Positions 4,131-15,330 of a stretch of DNA of 22,991 bases are shown piece after piece (the stretch's first letter is position 1; each line of letters opens with the position of its first letter). Source of the stretch: a virus. A program made the position numbers and the translations under genes. The notes under the pieces are model-generated. The model searched no databases and was not told the origin of the DNA. It saw nothing but the letters and a program-made list of their open reading frames with translations. The stretch covers positions 1-22,991 of IMG/VR virus record IMGVR_UViG_3300025276_000226. One strand, written 5' to 3'.

Positions 4131-7100
4131 TTAATGATCAGTTGGATCGTCTTGTACTGTTAGAGTAAAGTTGCTAGTGTTTGTTGTTGGTATTAATACT
4201 GTGCAAACATCCCAAATAATGTCATCGTTAACACTCATTGCAGAACTAGGCATAGTAAACGATATAGTAAACGTTGCACTAATTAAATTTTGATTAGCGT
4301 CATAAACAAGATTTGTTTGCTGCACATTGTAGTTTGTTAAACTAGAATTAGCATTGTTTATAGTTATAGCAAACGATGGTGTAGAGCTAAACATGTAACC
4401 AGCGTTAGCAGCAATTACTTTAGTATAAACAGGGTTTATATAAGTTCCAGATATAGTTTCGCCTGAAACATTATTTGTAGTTTGGCTGTTAACAGTGTTA
4501 AACGAATTATTTGATATAGTAGTACTTGATGTTGGTGCAGGTATATTTGCCAAAGTATTAGACCAAGTAAAGTCATAGTTTAATTCACTGTCCCAATCTG
4601 GACTTGGTTTACAAGGTGATATAATGTCTTGCCACATAAATCTAATTGTAGTTGGTTGTTCAATAAGTATACAGCTACCGTTATCAATAGTTGCTAGTGA
4701 GTTGTAATTAAGAGCTGAAGAATTAGTACATCCGTAAACAGGTGATGGACCGTTGTGAGAAATTGACTCAGCCATACCAATACCTTGGTAAGAAAACTCT
4801 TTACTATCAAGATTACTAAGCGTTGTAGCTTCTCCGTATATATAATTAAACCATTTACCTTCTTTGTCCATAAACTCTTTAACTCTTCCTGTCTGCAGAT
4901 CAGTTGTTAAAGAATCTACGTACCATCCTTTTTTAGCGTCTAAGTTGTAAAATTCTCCATCATTATAACTAACACCTCCAACTGTTACTGTTTGAAATAA
5001 GTCAATTTTTGATTGCGTTCCTTCATAGTTTAAAGTGTTAAATCTTTTAACAGAACCTGGTTGTTCGTTTAAAACCACAGTTACACTTGAAAATGCACTG
5101 TTAAGATCTGTTGCGGAGATTCCATAAAAGTTATTTATTTCTTGGTTATTATGGTGAAGATATATATTGCCTTTTTTAAAAGTATAATACTCGTTGTCTA
5201 AACTTAAACCGCTTTCTGGAATAAAAGATTTAAAAGAAGTCCATCCGTTTGATGTTTCACTAAAACTAACTGTTGAATTTATTTTAGGCGTGTAAGTTAC
5301 CTCTGCACTTGTAAAGCCGTCTGTAGTAGTTCCTCTATCATGTAACGTTAAATTATATAGGTTTTTTCTTTTATCATAACTACCTATTAAGTCGGTTGCT
5401 AAGTGTAAATTGTCTCTAAAGTAATCTTTCATACCTTGAGAAGACACAACCGTTAAACCATCTTTTGATAATCTTAAAACCGCGCCTCTAGCTTGGTCAG
5501 CAAAATAAACTCTAAAGTTTTCTTGAGCAAAAGATTCTGGGTGATTTGATATACCATACTCACCACTATAAGGTTCTGCAGTTCCTAAAACTCTATTTGT
5601 TGAAACCAAGTTTACATTACCATCGGCATTGTATAAAGCGTCTTTTTTTGAATATATTTTTAAAACTTTATCTTCACAAAAAGCTATAATGTTATTGTTT
5701 CTAGTAAATAGCTTTTGTATAGCTCCATATTGATTGTTTAAATCTTTAGTTATACCATTTGAACTTATAAATTGATTTAAATTGTTAACGCTATTTTTAC
5801 CGTTATAAATACCTGAAAATATTAATCCAGAAGATCTTTTTTCTTCTTTGTATTGTCCAGATAAAACTGTAGATGCTTTAACACCTTTACCTAAAGTTGT
5901 TTGGTTAAAATCATCTCTTATTCTATCGGATTCTATTCCTTGAGGAAAAGCAAAACAGTTGCTGTACTCAAGAGTCATTTTTTGATTACTAACATCTTCG
6001 TAAAAAGAAATGCTAGTAGCAACGTAAGATCCACTTGAATTAATTGTTGAGGCTGTTATTTCTTTTAACATTGCTCTAACTTTACCACCATCAGCTCTTG
6101 TAAATGTAATTATTTCATTTTGAACAAGACCAGTTATTGTTCCTGTTAAAGTAACAATATTGTCACTCCAACTTAAAATGGCACAAGAAGCTGAAACAAC
6201 AGCTACAGAAGACGAGCTATCTATAGATACTGCTGAACCTATTGAAGCAAACATTTCATTTGTGTTTGAATTTAATCTTGTAGGAAAAGTTACGCTAGCC
6301 TCGTAGTAAACATCCAAACCAACATCTTCTCTTGGTTCTGTTTCAAAAACAGCTGGATTTGTAGTTGAAAACTCTCCAGACTCGTCAGAATGATTTCTAA
6401 TTAATTCTATTAAAGAATTTTGCTTACCGTCATGTTTTATATCTAAAGGGTAAAATCCACTAGAAGTTCTTTGTATTGGCGGGTCAACTTTTAAACTCCA
6501 TTTGTCTCTAAAAGATCTTCCGTTCCATCTTTTAGATGTAAAAATACTAGAAGTTGGAGATAAAGTTGTAAAATTTCTAATACCAGACTCATGTTTATAA
6601 TCTAAAATCGTATATGCTGTTTCATCAGGATCACTTGCAAACCTAAATACGGTACCTATTGCAAAAAATTCTTTAGAAAAACTATAATCTTCAGGCTGAA
6701 TATCTCTTCCATGTGTGCTCCATAAAGTTGGAACTCCATCTATACTTTTAGGCCTGTATACTTCGTCATTAAAACCAACCCAAGATATATCTATTCTTGT
6801 TCCAGGCACTTCGTTGTTGTGGTAATATATACCTTTTGAAGCGGTTGCAATTATTCCTGAAGATCCGTAACCACTCATATGCTGGCCGTGTTTTTCAACC
6901 AAAGTCTTTCCTCCAAGCGCCACAGAGTAATCTCCCCACTGTTTGTTTGCGTGAGTACCATTTCCAAGATTTGATATATCGTAATTAGTAGTGTCGTCGT
7001 CTATAAAAAAGCCACTGCCGTTACCGTTTCTGTTTTCCATTATAAAACCATTCCAGTAATCATAACCTTCATTGTTGTTTTTATAAATTTCATCAAAGTC

Positions 7101-10031
7101 TTTATTAGCAAAGCCTATCCAATCGTATTGGTAGTTAGCGTGTCCACTGGCTTGGTTAGCGTATCCAGGGTGTTGATCAACAGCTTTTATATATCTTACG
7201 TTTCTTGCTGAATAAGTAACTTTTTTTTCATCAGCAGTTTTACCAATAATTTTTTCTCTAACAATTGTATCATGCTCTATTTTAACAAAAAATCTTCCGT
7301 CAAAAAATGGTTTGTTTTCTACAGGGTACACTATAAGCTCTATACGTAAACCAGAAATTCTATTAGCGTAAGTACCGTCAGTGGTTGTAAATTCAACGTC
7401 ATCACCAAAAGGCTTGTCTAGTTCAAAATGATAATTACCACCTTGCCCAGTGTTGGTGATAGAGTTTACTTGATACTCAACACTTGATTTGCTTGTGCTA
7501 TGTATTTTTAAATACAAATCATCTTTAAGGTGAGGTGATTTTGCGTTTACAGTACCACTAGCGTCTATATCTACTAAGTTACTGTCGTTAAGAGCTCCGT
7601 AAGGTATTTCTAAATAGTTAAAGCCTGGAAAAGGAAATCCATCACCACCGTTTCCTATATGTGTTTTATCCGAGTTGTCTTGCATAAAACCTAAAGACCT
7701 TCTATTTCTTTTAATAAAATCTGGAGCTTCGTTGTCTATAGCAAGTATTTTAAATCTAGCTAACTCATCTTGAACTGCCGCAGAACTATCGTGTTGTTTT
7801 TTTAATATTAAAAAAGTTTGTTCGTCAACTTTGTTTCTTTCAGAGGAAGGAAAAGAAATCCAAATATTTCCATCTTCAGCGTTGAACCATCTGTCCATTG
7901 CTAGGTTGTAGTATTCGTTTGAAGGTTCTTTAACATAAAACTTAAAGCTTTCAGCCCAAGTTGGTGGTGTATTTAAAGCTCTTGCTTCTATTTGTGTGTT
8001 GTTATTACAAAAAACTTTATCAACTTTAACAAAACCTTTATCTGCACCAACTAAAACAGGAGTTTCTCTACCGTATTTGTCTAAATAAACAATACCAACT
8101 TGATAATTACGTATAGATTTAACTGATTTTCTACCAGAATCAATATACCTATCAAAAGAACCAACGTTTAGCGATGTTTGAATTTCAACAGCTGTGTCGT
8201 AATTGTAATTCTCAGTATAGTTACCATAAAGCAATCTGTTAGCTGCTATTTCTTGAGATTTAGCTTTTTTAGGCACCGCATCAAACGGTCTTAAAAATTG
8301 ATCAGAAGGAAGAACCGCATGTATCATTTCACTGTCAATACTTATCTCACCTCTATCATATTGATTGTTGTAAACGTCGGGCCAAACAGGATGCGGGTCT
8401 GTGTTTTTAATTGTTTTTACAGTGTATATATTAGTTGAATTTGACTCTTTATATAAAATATCTATTTCAACTACATCAGCAAGCCTAGCTCCAACGTTGT
8501 CACCTTCTATACCTGGCTCTGGTGCATATTTTTTTAATTTTAATTCTTTCAAGTCGTTGGACATACCAAGGTTATAGCCTTTTTTAGGTTCGTAATCAAA
8601 AGCTCCTGGTAAAAAAGCAACTTCAGACCAAGGTGAAAAAGCCGAATACTCTCCGTCTGTATACTTGTATCTATAACCAAACTTAGGGAACTTAAACTCA
8701 AATATAGATTTTTCTTGCTGTAGCAGACAAAAGAAATTTTCTCCACTTGCACTGTAAAGTAGTTCTGTACTTATTGATAATATTTCTATTTCAAATAAAC
8801 CTAAAAATAAGTTGTTACGATTATGTCCTTGTGGTACTTGGGTTATTCTAGCTCTAACCTCGTGATCTGTAAACTCTGTTGGCACAGCAGAAGTTTCATT
8901 TGTAAATATTAAAACATCACCAATTCTATAGTCTGGTGCTTGATTAAATGTAAGCAGCAAGGTTGTTCCTGCTGCAAAAGATGGGCCTGTTGAAGAAGGG
9001 AAAAATTGTATTGTGGTTTGAGCGTCGATTCTATTAGATACTCCGGTAATAGAATTTGTTCTTATAAAAGAAGTTCTTGACATGTCTAGCTCTAGCGGAG
9101 TTTGAGGCGCTGTTTTAAGAACTGTTAAGTGTTTTTCCTCTGTAAATATAGGATAATTTTGTAATCTGTTTGTTGCAACAGCGTAACCTGAAGCGGTAGT
9201 GGCATTATGTATAACTAATCTAGTGTGGTAGTTAAAGTTATTTCCACCAAAAACAAGGTTTGGACTAGAATTTATAGTTACAGAACCTCCAGTACCTCTA
9301 AAAGATCTATTTATATTTATTTTTTTAGGCTCTGAGTTACCATCAGTCCAAAATAGCATATCGTCAACAATGTTTATACCCGTTACAAGATAGTCTCTAT
9401 TAAAGTTTAACGTTCTGTCAATTAAAAATGTAATAGTTTCTGAAACTAAAGTTTGCAAAGCTTTGTTTAATGTTATCTTCCACCCAGTAGTTGCAGAGTC
9501 GTAAGCAATGTTTACAACGTAATAATTATCAGAAGCAGTTACGTTGACACTATTAAAAGTTCCTACTATTTGCATGCCTTTTCTAATACCAGTTTGATTG
9601 TCAGTGCTGCTTCCACTCCCTAAAGGTATATATAAATACTTAACAGCACTACCACTTGCTGTTCCAATTTTATTAATAACTTTATATATATCAACAAACA
9701 CGTATTTAACAGCATCTAATTTTGCGTCGTATTCAACAATCATGTCTCTAGTCACACCAGTCTTTGCGGTGTGCTTAGGATCGTTGTAAAGCATCCAATA
9801 TATTTTATTTGTAGTTGTGTTTGCTATAGAACCTACTGTGAAAGATTTTGATAGGCTAGTGGCTGATTTTGAAGTATTTCCTAAAGTAGTTTGCACAGCA
9901 CCAATATTAGAATCTTCTGAAGCTGAAACTTCAATGTTCATAGCATCTCTGTACTCACCGTTAGGAACTAATCTTTCATCCAGGTCTTTGTTCATTTTAC
10001 CTGCACGAAAATCGTGTTTTAACTCAGCCAT
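4131..10031 (-). CDS. Giant tail nozzle ('muzzle'/tail tubular B-like) protein
   Basis: This 1966-residue protein is the largest in the window. Its N-terminus (MAELKHDFRAGKMNKDLDER followed by LVPNGEYRDAMNIEV) is the signature of a large tail protein found in many marine podovirus contigs. The body is beta-rich. About residues 1485-1560 contain the conserved GEYGISNHPESFAQENFRVY and ARGAVLRLSKDGLTVVSSQG stretch, which resembles the propeller-like tail nozzle proteins of crAss-like phages (muzzle) and, functionally, T7 gp12 or P22 gp10. Residues 1766-1788 form a Cys-flanked motif (GCT...ALNYN...DNGSC) typical of Bacteroidetes surface proteins. The last ~110 residues form a beta domain like the N-terminus of the next gene. 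It is much longer than T7 gp12, so the extra domains probably do more than close the tube. It begins 3 bases after the connector gene. Confidence 0.9.
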   Translation of the reverse strand: MAELKHDFRAGKMNKDLDERLVPNGEYRDAMNIEVSASEDSNIGAVQTTLGNTSKSATSLSKSFTVGSIANTTTNKIYWMLYNDPKHTAKTGVTRDMIVEYDAKLDAVKYVFVDIYKVINKIGTASGSAVKYLYIPLGSGSSTDNQTGIRKGMQIVGTFNSVNVTASDNYYVVNIAYDSATTGWKITLNKALQTLVSETITFLIDRTLNFNRDYLVTGINIVDDMLFWTDGNSEPKKININRSFRGTGGSVTINSSPNLVFGGNNFNYHTRLVIHNATTASGYAVATNRLQNYPIFTEEKHLTVLKTAPQTPLELDMSRTSFIRTNSITGVSNRIDAQTTIQFFPSSTGPSFAAGTTLLLTFNQAPDYRIGDVLIFTNETSAVPTEFTDHEVRARITQVPQGHNRNNLFLGLFEIEILSISTELLYSASGENFFCLLQQEKSIFEFKFPKFGYRYKYTDGEYSAFSPWSEVAFLPGAFDYEPKKGYNLGMSNDLKELKLKKYAPEPGIEGDNVGARLADVVEIDILYKESNSTNIYTVKTIKNTDPHPVWPDVYNNQYDRGEISIDSEMIHAVLPSDQFLRPFDAVPKKAKSQEIAANRLLYGNYTENYNYDTAVEIQTSLNVGSFDRYIDSGRKSVKSIRNYQVGIVYLDKYGRETPVLVGADKGFVKVDKVFCNNNTQIEARALNTPPTWAESFKFYVKEPSNEYYNLAMDRWFNAEDGNIWISFPSSERNKVDEQTFLILKKQHDSSAAVQDELARFKILAIDNEAPDFIKRNRRSLGFMQDNSDKTHIGNGGDGFPFPGFNYLEIPYGALNDSNLVDIDASGTVNAKSPHLKDDLYLKIHSTSKSSVEYQVNSITNTGQGGNYHFELDKPFGDDVEFTTTDGTYANRISGLRIELIVYPVENKPFFDGRFFVKIEHDTIVREKIIGKTADEKKVTYSARNVRYIKAVDQHPGYANQASGHANYQYDWIGFANKDFDEIYKNNNEGYDYWNGFIMENRNGNGSGFFIDDDTTNYDISNLGNGTHANKQWGDYSVALGGKTLVEKHGQHMSGYGSSGIIATASKGIYYHNNEVPGTRIDISWVGFNDEVYRPKSIDGVPTLWSTHGRDIQPEDYSFSKEFFAIGTVFRFASDPDETAYTILDYKHESGIRNFTTLSPTSSIFTSKRWNGRSFRDKWSLKVDPPIQRTSSGFYPLDIKHDGKQNSLIELIRNHSDESGEFSTTNPAVFETEPREDVGLDVYYEASVTFPTRLNSNTNEMFASIGSAVSIDSSSSVAVVSASCAILSWSDNIVTLTGTITGLVQNEIITFTRADGGKVRAMLKEITASTINSSGSYVATSISFYEDVSNQKMTLEYSNCFAFPQGIESDRIRDDFNQTTLGKGVKASTVLSGQYKEEKRSSGLIFSGIYNGKNSVNNLNQFISSNGITKDLNNQYGAIQKLFTRNNNIIAFCEDKVLKIYSKKDALYNADGNVNLVSTNRVLGTAEPYSGEYGISNHPESFAQENFRVYFADQARGAVLRLSKDGLTVVSSQGMKDYFRDNLHLATDLIGSYDKRKNLYNLTLHDRGTTTDGFTSAEVTYTPKINSTVSFSETSNGWTSFKSFIPESGLSLDNEYYTFKKGNIYLHHNNQEINNFYGISATDLNSAFSSVTVVLNEQPGSVKRFNTLNYEGTQSKIDLFQTVTVGGVSYNDGEFYNLDAKKGWYVDSLTTDLQTGRVKEFMDKEGKWFNYIYGEATTLSNLDSKEFSYQGIGMAESISHNGPSPVYGCTNSSALNYNSLATIDNGSCILIEQPTTIRFMWQDIISPCKPSPDWDSELNYDFTWSNTLANIPAPTSSTTISNNSFNTVNSQTTNNVSGETISGTYINPVYTKVIAANAGYMFSSTPSFAITINNANSSLTNYNVQQTNLVYDANQNLISATFTISFTMPSSAMSVNDDIIWDVCTVLIPTTNTSNFTLTVQDDPTDH

Positions 10032-10910: not shown

Positions 10911-11645
10911 TTATTGTTTTTCTTGTTGTTGGTTTTTAGCCTCCATGTTAGACGCTACTTGTACTAAACCTACTTTGTTTATAGTTATACCTGCTAGCTC
11001 TAATATGTTTATCACCAAACTTTCTTCTTCTGAATCATGAAGCTCAAAATCAACAGAAAGATTAGAATTGTGTAATGCTTTTTCATTAACCACAACATAA
11101 GCCCACTCTACTTTTGCTGGTTTTTTAATATAGTTGACACTAACGTTATCCATACGGTTACTTGCAGACATAGTTGTTGGATATATTTCTATTGTCAATG
11201 TTGGGCTATTTGCGGCTCTTACATACACTGGTCTTGTTAATGTTGGTGCTGTTAAATTAGAGTTTAATAATAAATTTATTTCGTTAGTGTTAACTTTTTC
11301 AACAACAACAGCAGTGTCATAGCTGTTACCAAACTGTAATTGACCTAATCTATAAAGATCAAGTGGTAGTTGTGCTGAATTACTATTTACAGTAGCTAAT
11401 TCTTGACCCCATTTTTCAAACAAACTTATTTTTTCTTCTAATATGCTTATCATGTCAGAATAAACAGTACTGTTTCCTTTTTGTGTGGCTTGAAACTGAT
11501 GTATATCGTAAAAGTATTGCTCAAATATATTCATCTGAGCCTGATTGGCGTGAAGATTAAACTCTTGTGGAGTTATATAACCTCTTTGCTCTTTGTTAGC
11601 TAAAGCTAAAACTCTTTGATATACTGTATCTATGTTTACCGCCAT
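10911..11645 (-). CDS. Ring / head-tail connector structural protein
   Basis: This 244-residue protein starts with a helical segment (MAVNIDTVYQRVLALANKEQ, then RGYITPQEFNLHANQAQMNIF) that I recall as strongly conserved in marine phages and in crAss-like ring proteins. The middle is beta-rich (LPLDLYRLGQLQFG, VYVRAANSPTLTIEIYPT). The C-terminus has an acidic helix (LHDSEEESLVINILELAGIT) and a Gln/Lys tail. It follows the capsid-associated gene and comes before the Gp4-like adaptor and the nozzle, so a role as one of the stacked rings between portal and tail is likely. The start codon lies 15 bases downstream of a stable UUCG hairpin, after an A-rich leader (AAAACAAAAAGAAAT) of the kind used for initiation in Bacteroidetes. 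Function is inferred from order and similarity, not from a catalytic motif. Confidence 0.85.
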   Translation of the reverse strand: MAVNIDTVYQRVLALANKEQRGYITPQEFNLHANQAQMNIFEQYFYDIHQFQATQKGNSTVYSDMISILEEKISLFEKWGQELATVNSNSAQLPLDLYRLGQLQFGNSYDTAVVVEKVNTNEINLLLNSNLTAPTLTRPVYVRAANSPTLTIEIYPTTMSASNRMDNVSVNYIKKPAKVEWAYVVVNEKALHNSNLSVDFELHDSEEESLVINILELAGITINKVGLVQVASNMEAKNQQQEKQ

Positions 11646-11660
11646 ATTTCTTTTTGTTTT

Positions 11661-11697
11661 GTAGTTTGCAATCGCCCCGAAGAGCGACTGCTTCTAC
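11661..11697 (-). promoter_or_regulatory. Stable UUCG-capped RNA hairpin in the 280-aa / ring gene gap
   Basis: On the minus strand, GCAGTCGCTC pairs with GGGCGATTGC around a TTCG loop. This gives a ten-pair stem with two G-U pairs, closed by C-G as in the hyperstable C(UUCG)G tetraloop. Outer GTAG/CTAC arms add four pairs across a small internal loop. It sits alone in the 59-base gap between the 280-residue gene and the ring gene. The sequence after it on the transcribed strand is A-rich, not U-rich, so it is not a standard intrinsic terminator. A role in mRNA processing, 3'-end protection or translation control of the ring gene fits the position, but this is inference. Confidence 0.75.
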
Positions 11698-11704
11698 AAG
11701 GTTT

Positions 11705-12547
11705 TTACTTTAATTGTTTTTCTATGTTTGCATATATATCCATACCTTCATCAGTTTTAAACCAAGCTGCTAAAGCTGAATATGGATGTTCATCAAACGG
11801 TACATTCATTAGTTTTCTATCGTTAGATCCCCAAATAAACGTTCTTTGGTCTGCTGATAGTTTTAATATTCCCATTTCTGTTGCTTTAATACCAAAGTTT
11901 CTAAGAACAACATTTTCATCGCCAACTAACTCTAAGAATAATCCAGGATTTCTTTTAGCATATAATAGTAAATCTCTCTTAAGTTCTTTAGAACTCATCT
12001 CTGATACTTTAGAACCAACCTCAACACGCATTATTGCTTCTGCCATATCAATGTCCATGTTCATAGCTTCGTTTAAAGCTTCTATTTCTGTTTCTAAAAA
12101 CGCTACTTGATCAACAGCAATATCTTGAGGCTTGTGTTCATAATAAACCTGCCCTTTATGTGGATGGTATAAAGAAAGCAGTTGTTGTAAAACTGTTTTT
12201 TCTCTTTCTACAAATAAAACACCATCTCTAAATATAACGTGATCTGGTCTTTTGTCTCCTTTCATTTCGTCTACAAAATTTGTTCTTTGATTAGTTGTAC
12301 ATTTTAACTCTCTTTCAAAGCCTTTTTCTTCATCAAAATAATAAATGTTTGATGTTTTTAAAACATAAGACAAAGGTTTTATTTCTCCTGATAGCTTATA
12401 CAGTCTGTCTTTTATTTCCCAAGTTGGTTTTTTAGGTTCAACTTTTACTTTTGGTTTTGGTGTTTCCATTACCGGTGCTACGTTTTCTATATGCTCATCT
12501 CCAGGATCTCCCTGGTATGAAGCTTTTGTTTTTGCTTTTTTAGCCAT
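11705..12547 (-). CDS. Conserved capsid-associated protein of marine phages (unknown role)
   Basis: This 280-residue protein has a Lys/Pro-rich, probably flexible N-terminus (residues 1-42). It continues with a conserved core: WEIKDRLYKLSGEIKPLSYV, then DHVIFRDGVLFVEREKTVLQ and LLSLYHPHKGQVYYE. The helical C-terminal half includes MRVEVGSKVSEMSSKELKRD, LLLYAKRNPGLFLELVGDEN and FIWGSNDRKLMNVPFDEHPY. I recall these blocks as widely shared in uncultured marine phages, always next to the capsid gene. It comes after the capsid gene, separated by an intrinsic terminator. A head-decoration, auxiliary-capsid or portal-proximal role is likely; no enzyme motif is visible. The start follows a TTATATTATATT leader also found before the scaffold gene. 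Confidence 0.85.
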   Translation of the reverse strand: MAKKAKTKASYQGDPGDEHIENVAPVMETPKPKVKVEPKKPTWEIKDRLYKLSGEIKPLSYVLKTSNIYYFDEEKGFERELKCTTNQRTNFVDEMKGDKRPDHVIFRDGVLFVEREKTVLQQLLSLYHPHKGQVYYEHKPQDIAVDQVAFLETEIEALNEAMNMDIDMAEAIMRVEVGSKVSEMSSKELKRDLLLYAKRNPGLFLELVGDENVVLRNFGIKATEMGILKLSADQRTFIWGSNDRKLMNVPFDEHPYSALAAWFKTDEGMDIYANIEKQLK

Positions 12548-12559
12548 AATATAATATAA
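12545..12559 (-). promoter_or_regulatory. AT-repeat translation leader (TTATATTATATTATG)
   Basis: The 280-residue gene start is preceded by TTATATTATATT directly abutting the ATG, with no Shine-Dalgarno sequence. The same 15-base string, start codon included, precedes the scaffold gene. An 11-base version precedes the cupin-like gene. The repetition suggests a preferred initiation context in this phage, in line with SD-independent initiation in Bacteroidetes. Confidence 0.5.
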
Positions 12560-12577
12560 TATAAATTAATAAAAATA

Positions 12578-12607
12578 AAAGGACCGAGGCCGAAGCCCCG
12601 GTTCTTT
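12578..12607 (-). terminator. Intrinsic terminator after the major capsid gene, UUCG loop
   Basis: On the minus strand, AAAGAACCGGGGC pairs with GCCTCGGTCCTTT around a TTCG loop. Of thirteen positions only one is mismatched (A-C) and one is G-U, and the loop-closing pair is C-G. The stem is followed at once by TTTTATTTTTATT, a good U-rich tail. It begins 14 bases after the capsid stop codon and ends before the 280-residue gene. This is a textbook Rho-independent terminator in an otherwise AT-rich, tightly packed operon. It likely raises capsid-protein message relative to downstream tail genes by stopping a fraction of transcripts. Confidence 0.93.
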
Positions 12608-14109: not shown

Positions 14110-15318
14110 TTATTTATTTTTGTTTTTGAACTTAAACTTAAAGTTAGGCGCTCCATCGTCTAGTGCTCTTACCTTTAAACCATCCGTTTCACTTGTATTG
14201 AATGATTGTCTAGGTGCCATGCTTACGTTTTTAGATCTAGCAACACTGCTTTTTAAAGCATCTGCTTTACCTTGCTCGTAAAAATGACTTGCAAGAGCGT
14301 CTGGATTCATAGCTGCGTATAAGGATTTATGATAACCTTTAGCATCACTCATTAAACCATTCTCTTTATTAGTGAATTTAGAAACAAAATTGTTAATATC
14401 ACTTTGAGAAGTTTTAACTTGTTCAACATTTTTTACATTAAATCTAAACGTTTTATCTGAAACCTTGAAGTCAAAACCTTTGAATTCATTTCCAAATACG
14501 TCATTTGTTTTTTGTAAAAATACAGATTTACCTTTTTCGGCAACTTTGTTGTTTGCTTCCGACTCTTCGTTGTAGTTGTTAAAGAAACTTATAGCATCTT
14601 GTTGATCTGGCGTTAGCCTTGATCCAGCTTTTATTTCTTCATAGTATTTGGACTTTTGCCCGTCCAGGTGGCGAGTAGCATTGGCAACTTGCTCTTTTAA
14701 TGCTAATTTTTTTCTTTTTATTTCTCTTTCGTTGTCACTTTCTTCATCATAAGAAAATTGATCTTCCATTAAGAAACTAATTTCTTCACTATCTAAATGA
14801 GGTTTTGTTTGTTGGTAAAACTCTCTTAACAATGTATCATTGTCTAATTTAGAATAGTCTTGATTAATATTTACATAATCTTCTAAAGTACCACCAGTTT
14901 CTTGCATAAAATCTACAGCTTTTTGTAAATTTTCAGGCAAAGGTGTTCCAGTCTCTTGCTTTTCTATGGTAGCGTCTATTAAGTTTTCAGTTAAAGTTTC
15001 TGCTTCGTCTTTAACTTCTTCATTAGTTACATCTACTAATACTGGACCTTCTTCTTGTGTTTGTTCTTGCGGTTGTACTTCTTCTTGTTTTTCTGTGGGC
15101 TCGGCATTATCAGGCTCTGCAACCACTCCCTTGTCGTCAAGGTTATCTTCTTTAATTTCATCGGTTGTTGGTGTTTGTGGTTTGTTTAAATCTACTTTGT
15201 AATCTTCTTCTGGAGTAAATTTTTTAATTTTCTTTTTTATTTTTATCTTGTCAACTTTATCGTCAACAATAGGTTGTTGCTTTGTAGTTTCTTCAACTAC
15301 TTCGTTTTTTTCTTCCAT
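14110..15318 (-). CDS. Probable scaffolding protein
   Basis: This 402-residue, very hydrophilic protein lies between the portal and capsid genes. Residues 1-110 are acidic, Glu/Gln/Pro/Asp-rich and surely disordered. The middle (about 125-270) is charged and helical (LPENLQKAVDFMQETGGTLE, SEEISFLMEDQFSYDEESDN). The C-terminus ends in a helical segment (DALASHFYEQGKADALKSSV) and a basic FKFKFKNKNK tail. Acidic flexible body, helices and a basic C-terminal end that could bind the shell are classic for phage scaffolds, as is the location just before the capsid gene. No protease motif was seen, so a scaffold-protease fusion is unlikely. The ATG follows the TTATATTATATT leader. Confidence 0.85.
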   Translation of the reverse strand: MEEKNEVVEETTKQQPIVDDKVDKIKIKKKIKKFTPEEDYKVDLNKPQTPTTDEIKEDNLDDKGVVAEPDNAEPTEKQEEVQPQEQTQEEGPVLVDVTNEEVKDEAETLTENLIDATIEKQETGTPLPENLQKAVDFMQETGGTLEDYVNINQDYSKLDNDTLLREFYQQTKPHLDSEEISFLMEDQFSYDEESDNEREIKRKKLALKEQVANATRHLDGQKSKYYEEIKAGSRLTPDQQDAISFFNNYNEESEANNKVAEKGKSVFLQKTNDVFGNEFKGFDFKVSDKTFRFNVKNVEQVKTSQSDINNFVSKFTNKENGLMSDAKGYHKSLYAAMNPDALASHFYEQGKADALKSSVARSKNVSMAPRQSFNTSETDGLKVRALDDGAPNFKFKFKNKNK

Positions 15319-15330
15319 AATATAATATAA
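15316..15330 (-). promoter_or_regulatory. AT-repeat translation leader before scaffold gene
   Basis: TTATATTATATT directly abuts the scaffold ATG, identical over 15 bases to the leader of the 280-residue gene about 2.8 kb away. No Shine-Dalgarno sequence is present. It may be a start-site context or a shared regulatory element. Confidence 0.5.

Follow-up and report, generated by a model that had tools for sequence, protein, structure and literature searches.

The window, i.e. the whole stretch of 22,991 nucleotides that was analysed, encodes on its minus strand a set of structural genes in the order terminase, portal, scaffold-like protein, major capsid protein, a 280-residue protein, a 244-residue protein and tail genes. 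The element described below lies between the 280-residue and the 244-residue genes. The 280-residue gene (11705..12547, minus strand), directly upstream of it, belongs to phrog_34748, a family of unknown function (4e-17). The predicted fold of this protein had no significant fold match in the PDB, and sequence searches of solved structures gave no match for it or for its 244-residue neighbour. The 244-residue gene (10911..11645, minus strand), directly downstream of the element, falls into a virion structural protein family (phrog_14543, 1e-38), and the phicrAss001 tail-barrel ring chains 7qoj_E/D/F match its predicted fold with E values of 4e-8 to 7e-8 (Foldseek, probability 1.00, TM about 0.5, model pLDDT 74). 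The name "ring gene", given to it in an earlier, sequence-only reading of this DNA, is supported by both the family and the fold match to the phicrAss001 ring proteins, and by its predicted fold the product would be a crAss-type tail-barrel (adaptor) ring protein. After two ring-side genes, a 1966-residue protein is encoded in one frame (window 4131-10031, minus strand).

By capsid protein, the nearest annotated relatives are the uncultured record MW202828, Maribacter phage Panino, the Flavobacterium elemo phages and the Cellulophaga phages, and one relative lies within a Bacteroidetes metagenome bin. The phage group therefore most likely infects Bacteroidota. Ribosomes of these bacteria make no use of Shine-Dalgarno sequences and prefer A-rich, unstructured leaders (PMC6847099), so that the A-rich leader without Shine-Dalgarno found before the ring ATG (11646..11658, minus strand) is ordinary for such hosts.

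The major capsid gene is followed by an intrinsic terminator with a UUCG loop and a U-rich tail (CCTTTTATTTTTATT, 12583..12602, minus strand), and relatives likewise have hairpins with U-rich tails in the post-capsid gap. Motif counts and conservation revealed a promoter-like motif, TTATATTATATTATATTATG, which ends in the ATG of the 280-residue gene (12545..12564, minus strand). Its form TTATATTATATTATG has four matches in the window versus 0.35 expected; minus-strand copies at 12545-12564, 15316-15330 and 1726-1740 end in the ATG of the 280-residue, scaffold-like and 153-residue genes, respectively, the last one with one mismatch. The first two places are those conserved in relatives: TTATATTATATT-ATG recurs in nearly all of them, in the DNA examined at the 280 and scaffold starts only, its conserved form being TTATATTATAT(T/C)-ATG. 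The motif is a candidate phage late promoter with a very short leader or none, and before the 280-residue gene it looks like a promoter by its position and conservation.

In cultured relatives, the gap between the 280-residue and ring genes contains a U-tailed terminator. In an elemo phage, MW202828 and phi38:1, a host-type promoter-like TAnnTTTG follows the gap terminator, and in Panino the two are separated by extra genes. Four annotated relatives (L082, L083, L084 and L313) combine U-tailed terminators with Bacteroidota-type TAnnTTTG elements in the gaps around the 280-residue gene. Among 165 gaps of the window's group, TAnnTTTG was found in one, and given this absence transcription of the ring genes probably depends on read-through. 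This suggests that the transcription strategy changed between these four annotated relatives and the window's group. With a terminator and a conserved motif before the 280-residue gene and no promoter in the ring gap, the most likely start of the transcription unit is just ahead of the 280-residue gene, from where it would run through the hairpin and the ring gene into further tail genes. The earlier proposal that the 280-residue gene has a transcription unit of its own thus gains support from the upstream terminator and from the conserved motif.

A conserved RNA hairpin behind the 280-residue gene

From the stop codon of the 280-residue gene (TAA, 11707-11705) to the ring ATG at 11645, the gap measures 59 bases, which fold into a main hairpin, H2, the ground state (11659..11699, minus strand). 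Along the minus strand, the order is TAA, AAACC, UUGUAG, AA, GCAGUCGCUC, UUCG, GGGCGAUUGC, AAA, CUACAA, AACAAAAAGAAAU and AUG. The outer arm P1 joins UUGUAG (11699-11694) to CUACAA (11664-11659) by six pairs, the inner stem P2 joins GCAGUCGCUC (11691-11682) to GGGCGAUUGC (11677-11668) by ten pairs, two of which are G-U, and the loop UUCG occupies 11681-11678. The minimum free energy (MFE) of the gap is -22.1 kcal/mol, versus -10.4 (sd 2.6) in dinucleotide shuffles (z -4.5), and none of 200 shuffles was as stable. The hairpin is real, and beyond chance. The sequence-only reading had described it correctly as to its ten-pair inner stem; the outer arm that it reported is also present, with six pairs rather than four, the interval 11661-11697 spanning the inner four only. 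It was right as well that H2 is not a standard terminator. A GC-rich hairpin is there, with its ten-pair stem, and in this phage the U-rich tract that should directly adjoin it is missing: no U-run follows the stem, which continues into AAACUACAAAACAAAAAG.

Relatives were gathered by four ring-protein scans of viral contigs, to which a few annotated records were added. The 312 loci gave 165 distinct comparable gaps, most of them 50-64 nt long, and nearly all contain a strong hairpin. RNAalifold on a single MAFFT alignment of 89 gaps returned no structure, because the stems of different clades are out of register; the problem was solved by aligning clade by clade. Alignment A2 covers a single clade with 34 sequences; its inner stem is paired in 100% of cells, with both-sided changes in 7 of the 10 pairs. 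In alignment A4 (the window clade, 24 sequences), pairing is 99.6%, and 4 of 10 pairs show both-sided changes. Covariation across relatives had been proposed as a check on the hairpin, and compensatory changes indeed proved abundant in the H2 stem. The UUCG tetraloop, also pointed out at the start, does occur in both H2 and the post-capsid terminator; it is not the conserved part of H2, since close relatives mostly have UACG, and others UGCG, UUUG, UAUG or longer loops.

The strand on which selection acts can be read from the mismatches that are tolerated. In fixed alignment columns, G-U combinations outnumber A-C combinations by 85 to 0 in the mRNA sense, a count restricted to such columns because a tally on MFE structures is partly circular. 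As G-U is tolerated and A-C never, selection acts on the mRNA in the coding sense, and not on the DNA. What the sequence analysis establishes is that this gap specifies a conserved RNA element that acts in cis and in the late-mRNA sense.

A covariance model whose clade alignment left out the window also recovered H2, matching positions 11648-11710 with 46.3 bits (E 1.9e-7), versus 14.2 bits for the runner-up site within the window. Scanning 84 loci (637 kb) with this model gave no further sense-strand site beyond this gap, and weaker antisense echoes at the gap sites themselves. Rfam had no gathering-level match for the window or nine relatives (best scores 13-17 bits, at chance level), and in the literature we found no structured RNA element described for crAss-like or marine Bacteroidota phages.

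U-runs of at least 5 occur in only 11 of the 165 gaps. The clades of L024 and L248 type have a U-tailed H2, which ends in seven U in the L024 type. A second hairpin (UAGUAGUAU...AUACUACUA) was observed between the U-tailed element and the ring ATG in L024, L029, L031 and L248.

H2 ends at a narrow distance from the ring ATG (median 13 nt, 5-95% range 10-24 nt). However, some relatives have an extra small ORF between the two genes, and in these the hairpin stays directly behind the stop codon of the 280-residue gene, no hairpin being found at the start of the ring gene. The element is thus tied to the 3' end of the 280-residue gene. The inserted ORF, which was seen in L038, L049, L052, L055, L070, L073, L221, L234, L236 and L312, encodes about 50-68 residues with a conserved KATG..DCGC..NKKFPY.

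An early alternative hairpin in register with the stop codon

The description of a single hairpin overlooked an alternative one, H1, located more 5' (11675..11701, minus strand; 5' arm 11701-11690, 3' arm 11685-11675), as well as its register with the stop codon. H1 was detected as the MFE structure of nascent prefixes, which in the window are those ending 27-37 nt from the stop codon. In H1, the 5' flank (A) pairs with the loop and the top of the main stem (A'); its 3' half is common to P2, and its 5' half to P1. Folding of growing prefixes passed through H1 in 156 of the 165 gaps. In most relatives, H1 and H2 can thus form as mutually exclusive structures: H1 is complete first, and the more stable H2 can form only once the second half of the gap is available. 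Examples are UCACUUAUAGAGGU-AGUC-AUCUCUAUgAGGUGA in L048 and UCACCUUUAUAGU pairing with GCUGUAAAAGGUGG in L285. A compensatory change is seen between L064 (CACCAUU/AAUGGUG) and L077 (CACCUUU/AAAGGUG).

The A of a cluster paired better with its own A' than with the A' of other clusters, none of 20,000 permutations being as good (65, 49 or 31 cluster representatives); these tests treat clusters as exchangeable despite their common ancestry, so that p-values are indicative only. The specificity also holds for those bases of the 5' flank that H2 leaves unpaired. Pairing of A' with the 3' flank, which served as a negative control, was not specific. H1 was more stable than in H2-preserving shuffles, at 0.05, in 35 of 49 clusters. 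In roughly one cluster in four it was weak or absent, and most of these clusters have a simple hairpin that resembles a terminator.

The H1 of the window is among the weaker ones. It reaches -9.3 kcal/mol versus -5.3 in H2-preserving shuffles (fraction 0.03) for a prefix that ends before H2 can form, and for a longer prefix, in which part of H2 can form, the difference was not significant (0.65). In near relatives of the window (L001, L006 and L061), H1 reaches -14. It may be that in the window H2 acts almost alone. The two mutually exclusive, conserved structures of an attenuator are present in the family, and weakly so in the window, and the terminator of an attenuator would correspond to the U-tailed H2 of the L024/L248-type clades, the H2 of the window having no U tail.

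In the window, the 5' arm of H1 starts 3 nt, and P2 13 nt, past the stop codon. Over the 165 gaps, the 5' arm of H1 starts at -2 to +5 (median 1 nt), its A part ends at about +13 nt, and P2 starts at +14 (11-17). The barrier for conversion of H1 into H2 is about 16 kcal/mol, an upper bound obtained by a path heuristic. An H-type pseudoknot joining the two hairpins was set aside, as the strand between the helices is too short and the 3' arm of H1 overlaps that of H2. Separately, many relatives, not all (e.g. L016, L064, L101), have a mini-hairpin of 4-6 pairs spanning the stop codon of the 280-residue gene (GAUU..AAUC or GACU..AGUC), in which a Leu codon and the bases at UAA/UAG vary together. 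Intercistronic hairpins and attenuators are of an already known kind; what is new is the conservation of two alternative states, kept in register with the stop codon.

Possible roles of the element

We favour, tentatively and as something less than a probable explanation, a boundary element within the late operon, perhaps a folding switch sensitive to ribosomes, that lowers the output of the ring gene. The element would lower or tune expression of the low-copy ring gene relative to the 280-residue gene, part of the transcripts ending, pausing or being cut at H2. On reaching a stop codon, a ribosome shields some 10 nt of mRNA past its A site and represses nearby terminators (PMC4824070). Given this footprint and the register of the hairpins, a ribosome parked on the stop codon of the 280-residue gene would cover the 5' arm of H1 and spare the main stem, so that H2 would form. 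With no ribosome close by, H1 would form first and delay H2. In the minority clades with a U-run (e.g. the L024 type), H1 would serve as an antiterminator. Elsewhere, including in the window, the U-run is missing from H2, whose likelier modes of action would be transcript processing, pausing or protection of the 3' end. As most copies have no U-run, termination at these would be no more than a possibility. Whatever the route, the ring message would be less abundant than the 280 message, in keeping with dodecameric rings (PMC10172136), and with stem-loops that set stoichiometry (PMC9045158).

Rather than being a switch, the element could be a plain intercistronic stem-loop: H2 alone would protect or define the 3' end of the 280 message, or be an RNase III-type site, H1 being a by-product of the evolution of H2. 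This is a serious possibility, if a somewhat less plausible one. It accounts well for a near-universal, strongly covarying H2 beside an H1 that is missing from some copies and weak in the window, and for an element that remains with the 280-residue gene when an ORF is inserted downstream; moreover, operons whose stoichiometry is set by intercistronic stem-loops are known (PMC9045158). What it does not predict is that H1 pairing is specific beyond the constraints of H2, including in flank bases that are unpaired in H2.

The element could also control translation of the ring gene, initiation being set by H2 at about 13 nt before the ATG, or by a phage protein bound to H2. The narrow spacing between H2 and the ATG would fit, as would the dependence of Bacteroidota initiation on structure around the start codon (PMC6847099). 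However, the conserved A-rich leader itself stays open, and with an inserted ORF the hairpin goes with the 280-residue gene, leaving the ring start without one. The tuning of ring-gene initiation that had been suggested from the sequence is weakened by this, and we consider it improbable.

That H2 is the relic of a former terminator, whose U-run decayed and which has no present function, would agree with the U-tailed terminators that cultured relatives have in the same gap; yet a relic would decay, whereas the U-less stem has been kept by compensatory changes over large divergence, which makes this explanation very improbable. Template switching can yield perfect inverted repeats, so a DNA hairpin, or palindrome correction by this route, would produce such a stem, but it is hardly credible when G-U is common, A-C is absent in the mRNA sense, and this gap alone is affected.

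Returning to the boundary element, its most far-reaching form is a family-wide RNA folding switch that senses the ribosome finishing the upstream gene, and so gates the tail-ring message. We regard this form as unlikely, though not fanciful. If true, ring production would be tied to capsid-side translation with no need for a ligand, a leader peptide or a regulatory protein. A strongly covarying, bistable element of about 55 nt, at one place in the structural operon, would be a handle on the proportion of capsid to tail, in marine Bacteroidota phages of a kind that is abundant in the sea. The H1/H2 design predicts folding steered by ribosomes, which can be tested clearly and cheaply.

Comparison with known systems

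In phage T7, a post-capsid terminator is followed by the tail genes. The window would share with T7 a break at the transcript level between capsid and connector or tail genes; in the window, however, the terminator behind the capsid gene is a true one, and one further gene separates it from the U-less hairpin.

In type I toxin mRNAs, metastable hairpins form early in the nascent RNA and yield to a more stable one (PMC6733600), as H1 would to H2. The phage element differs in lying between two structural genes of an operon, with no toxin or antisense RNA.

The ribosome-dependent tR2 constructs and the pyrBI attenuator (PMC4824070) resemble it in having a structure a few nt past a stop codon, with the ribosome deciding which part of the RNA folds. 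There, however, a close ribosome blocks the terminator, whereas in the phage it would block H1 and spare the main stem, and the phage element has no evident sensed metabolite or leader peptide.

In clostridial ABC importer operons (PMC9045158), a stem-loop of similar strength lies after the first, highly needed gene and before its lower-copy partners, and many of these stem-loops have a poor U-run or none. They terminate in tests, whereas the phage element is known from its sequence, and most of its copies add the mutually exclusive H1.
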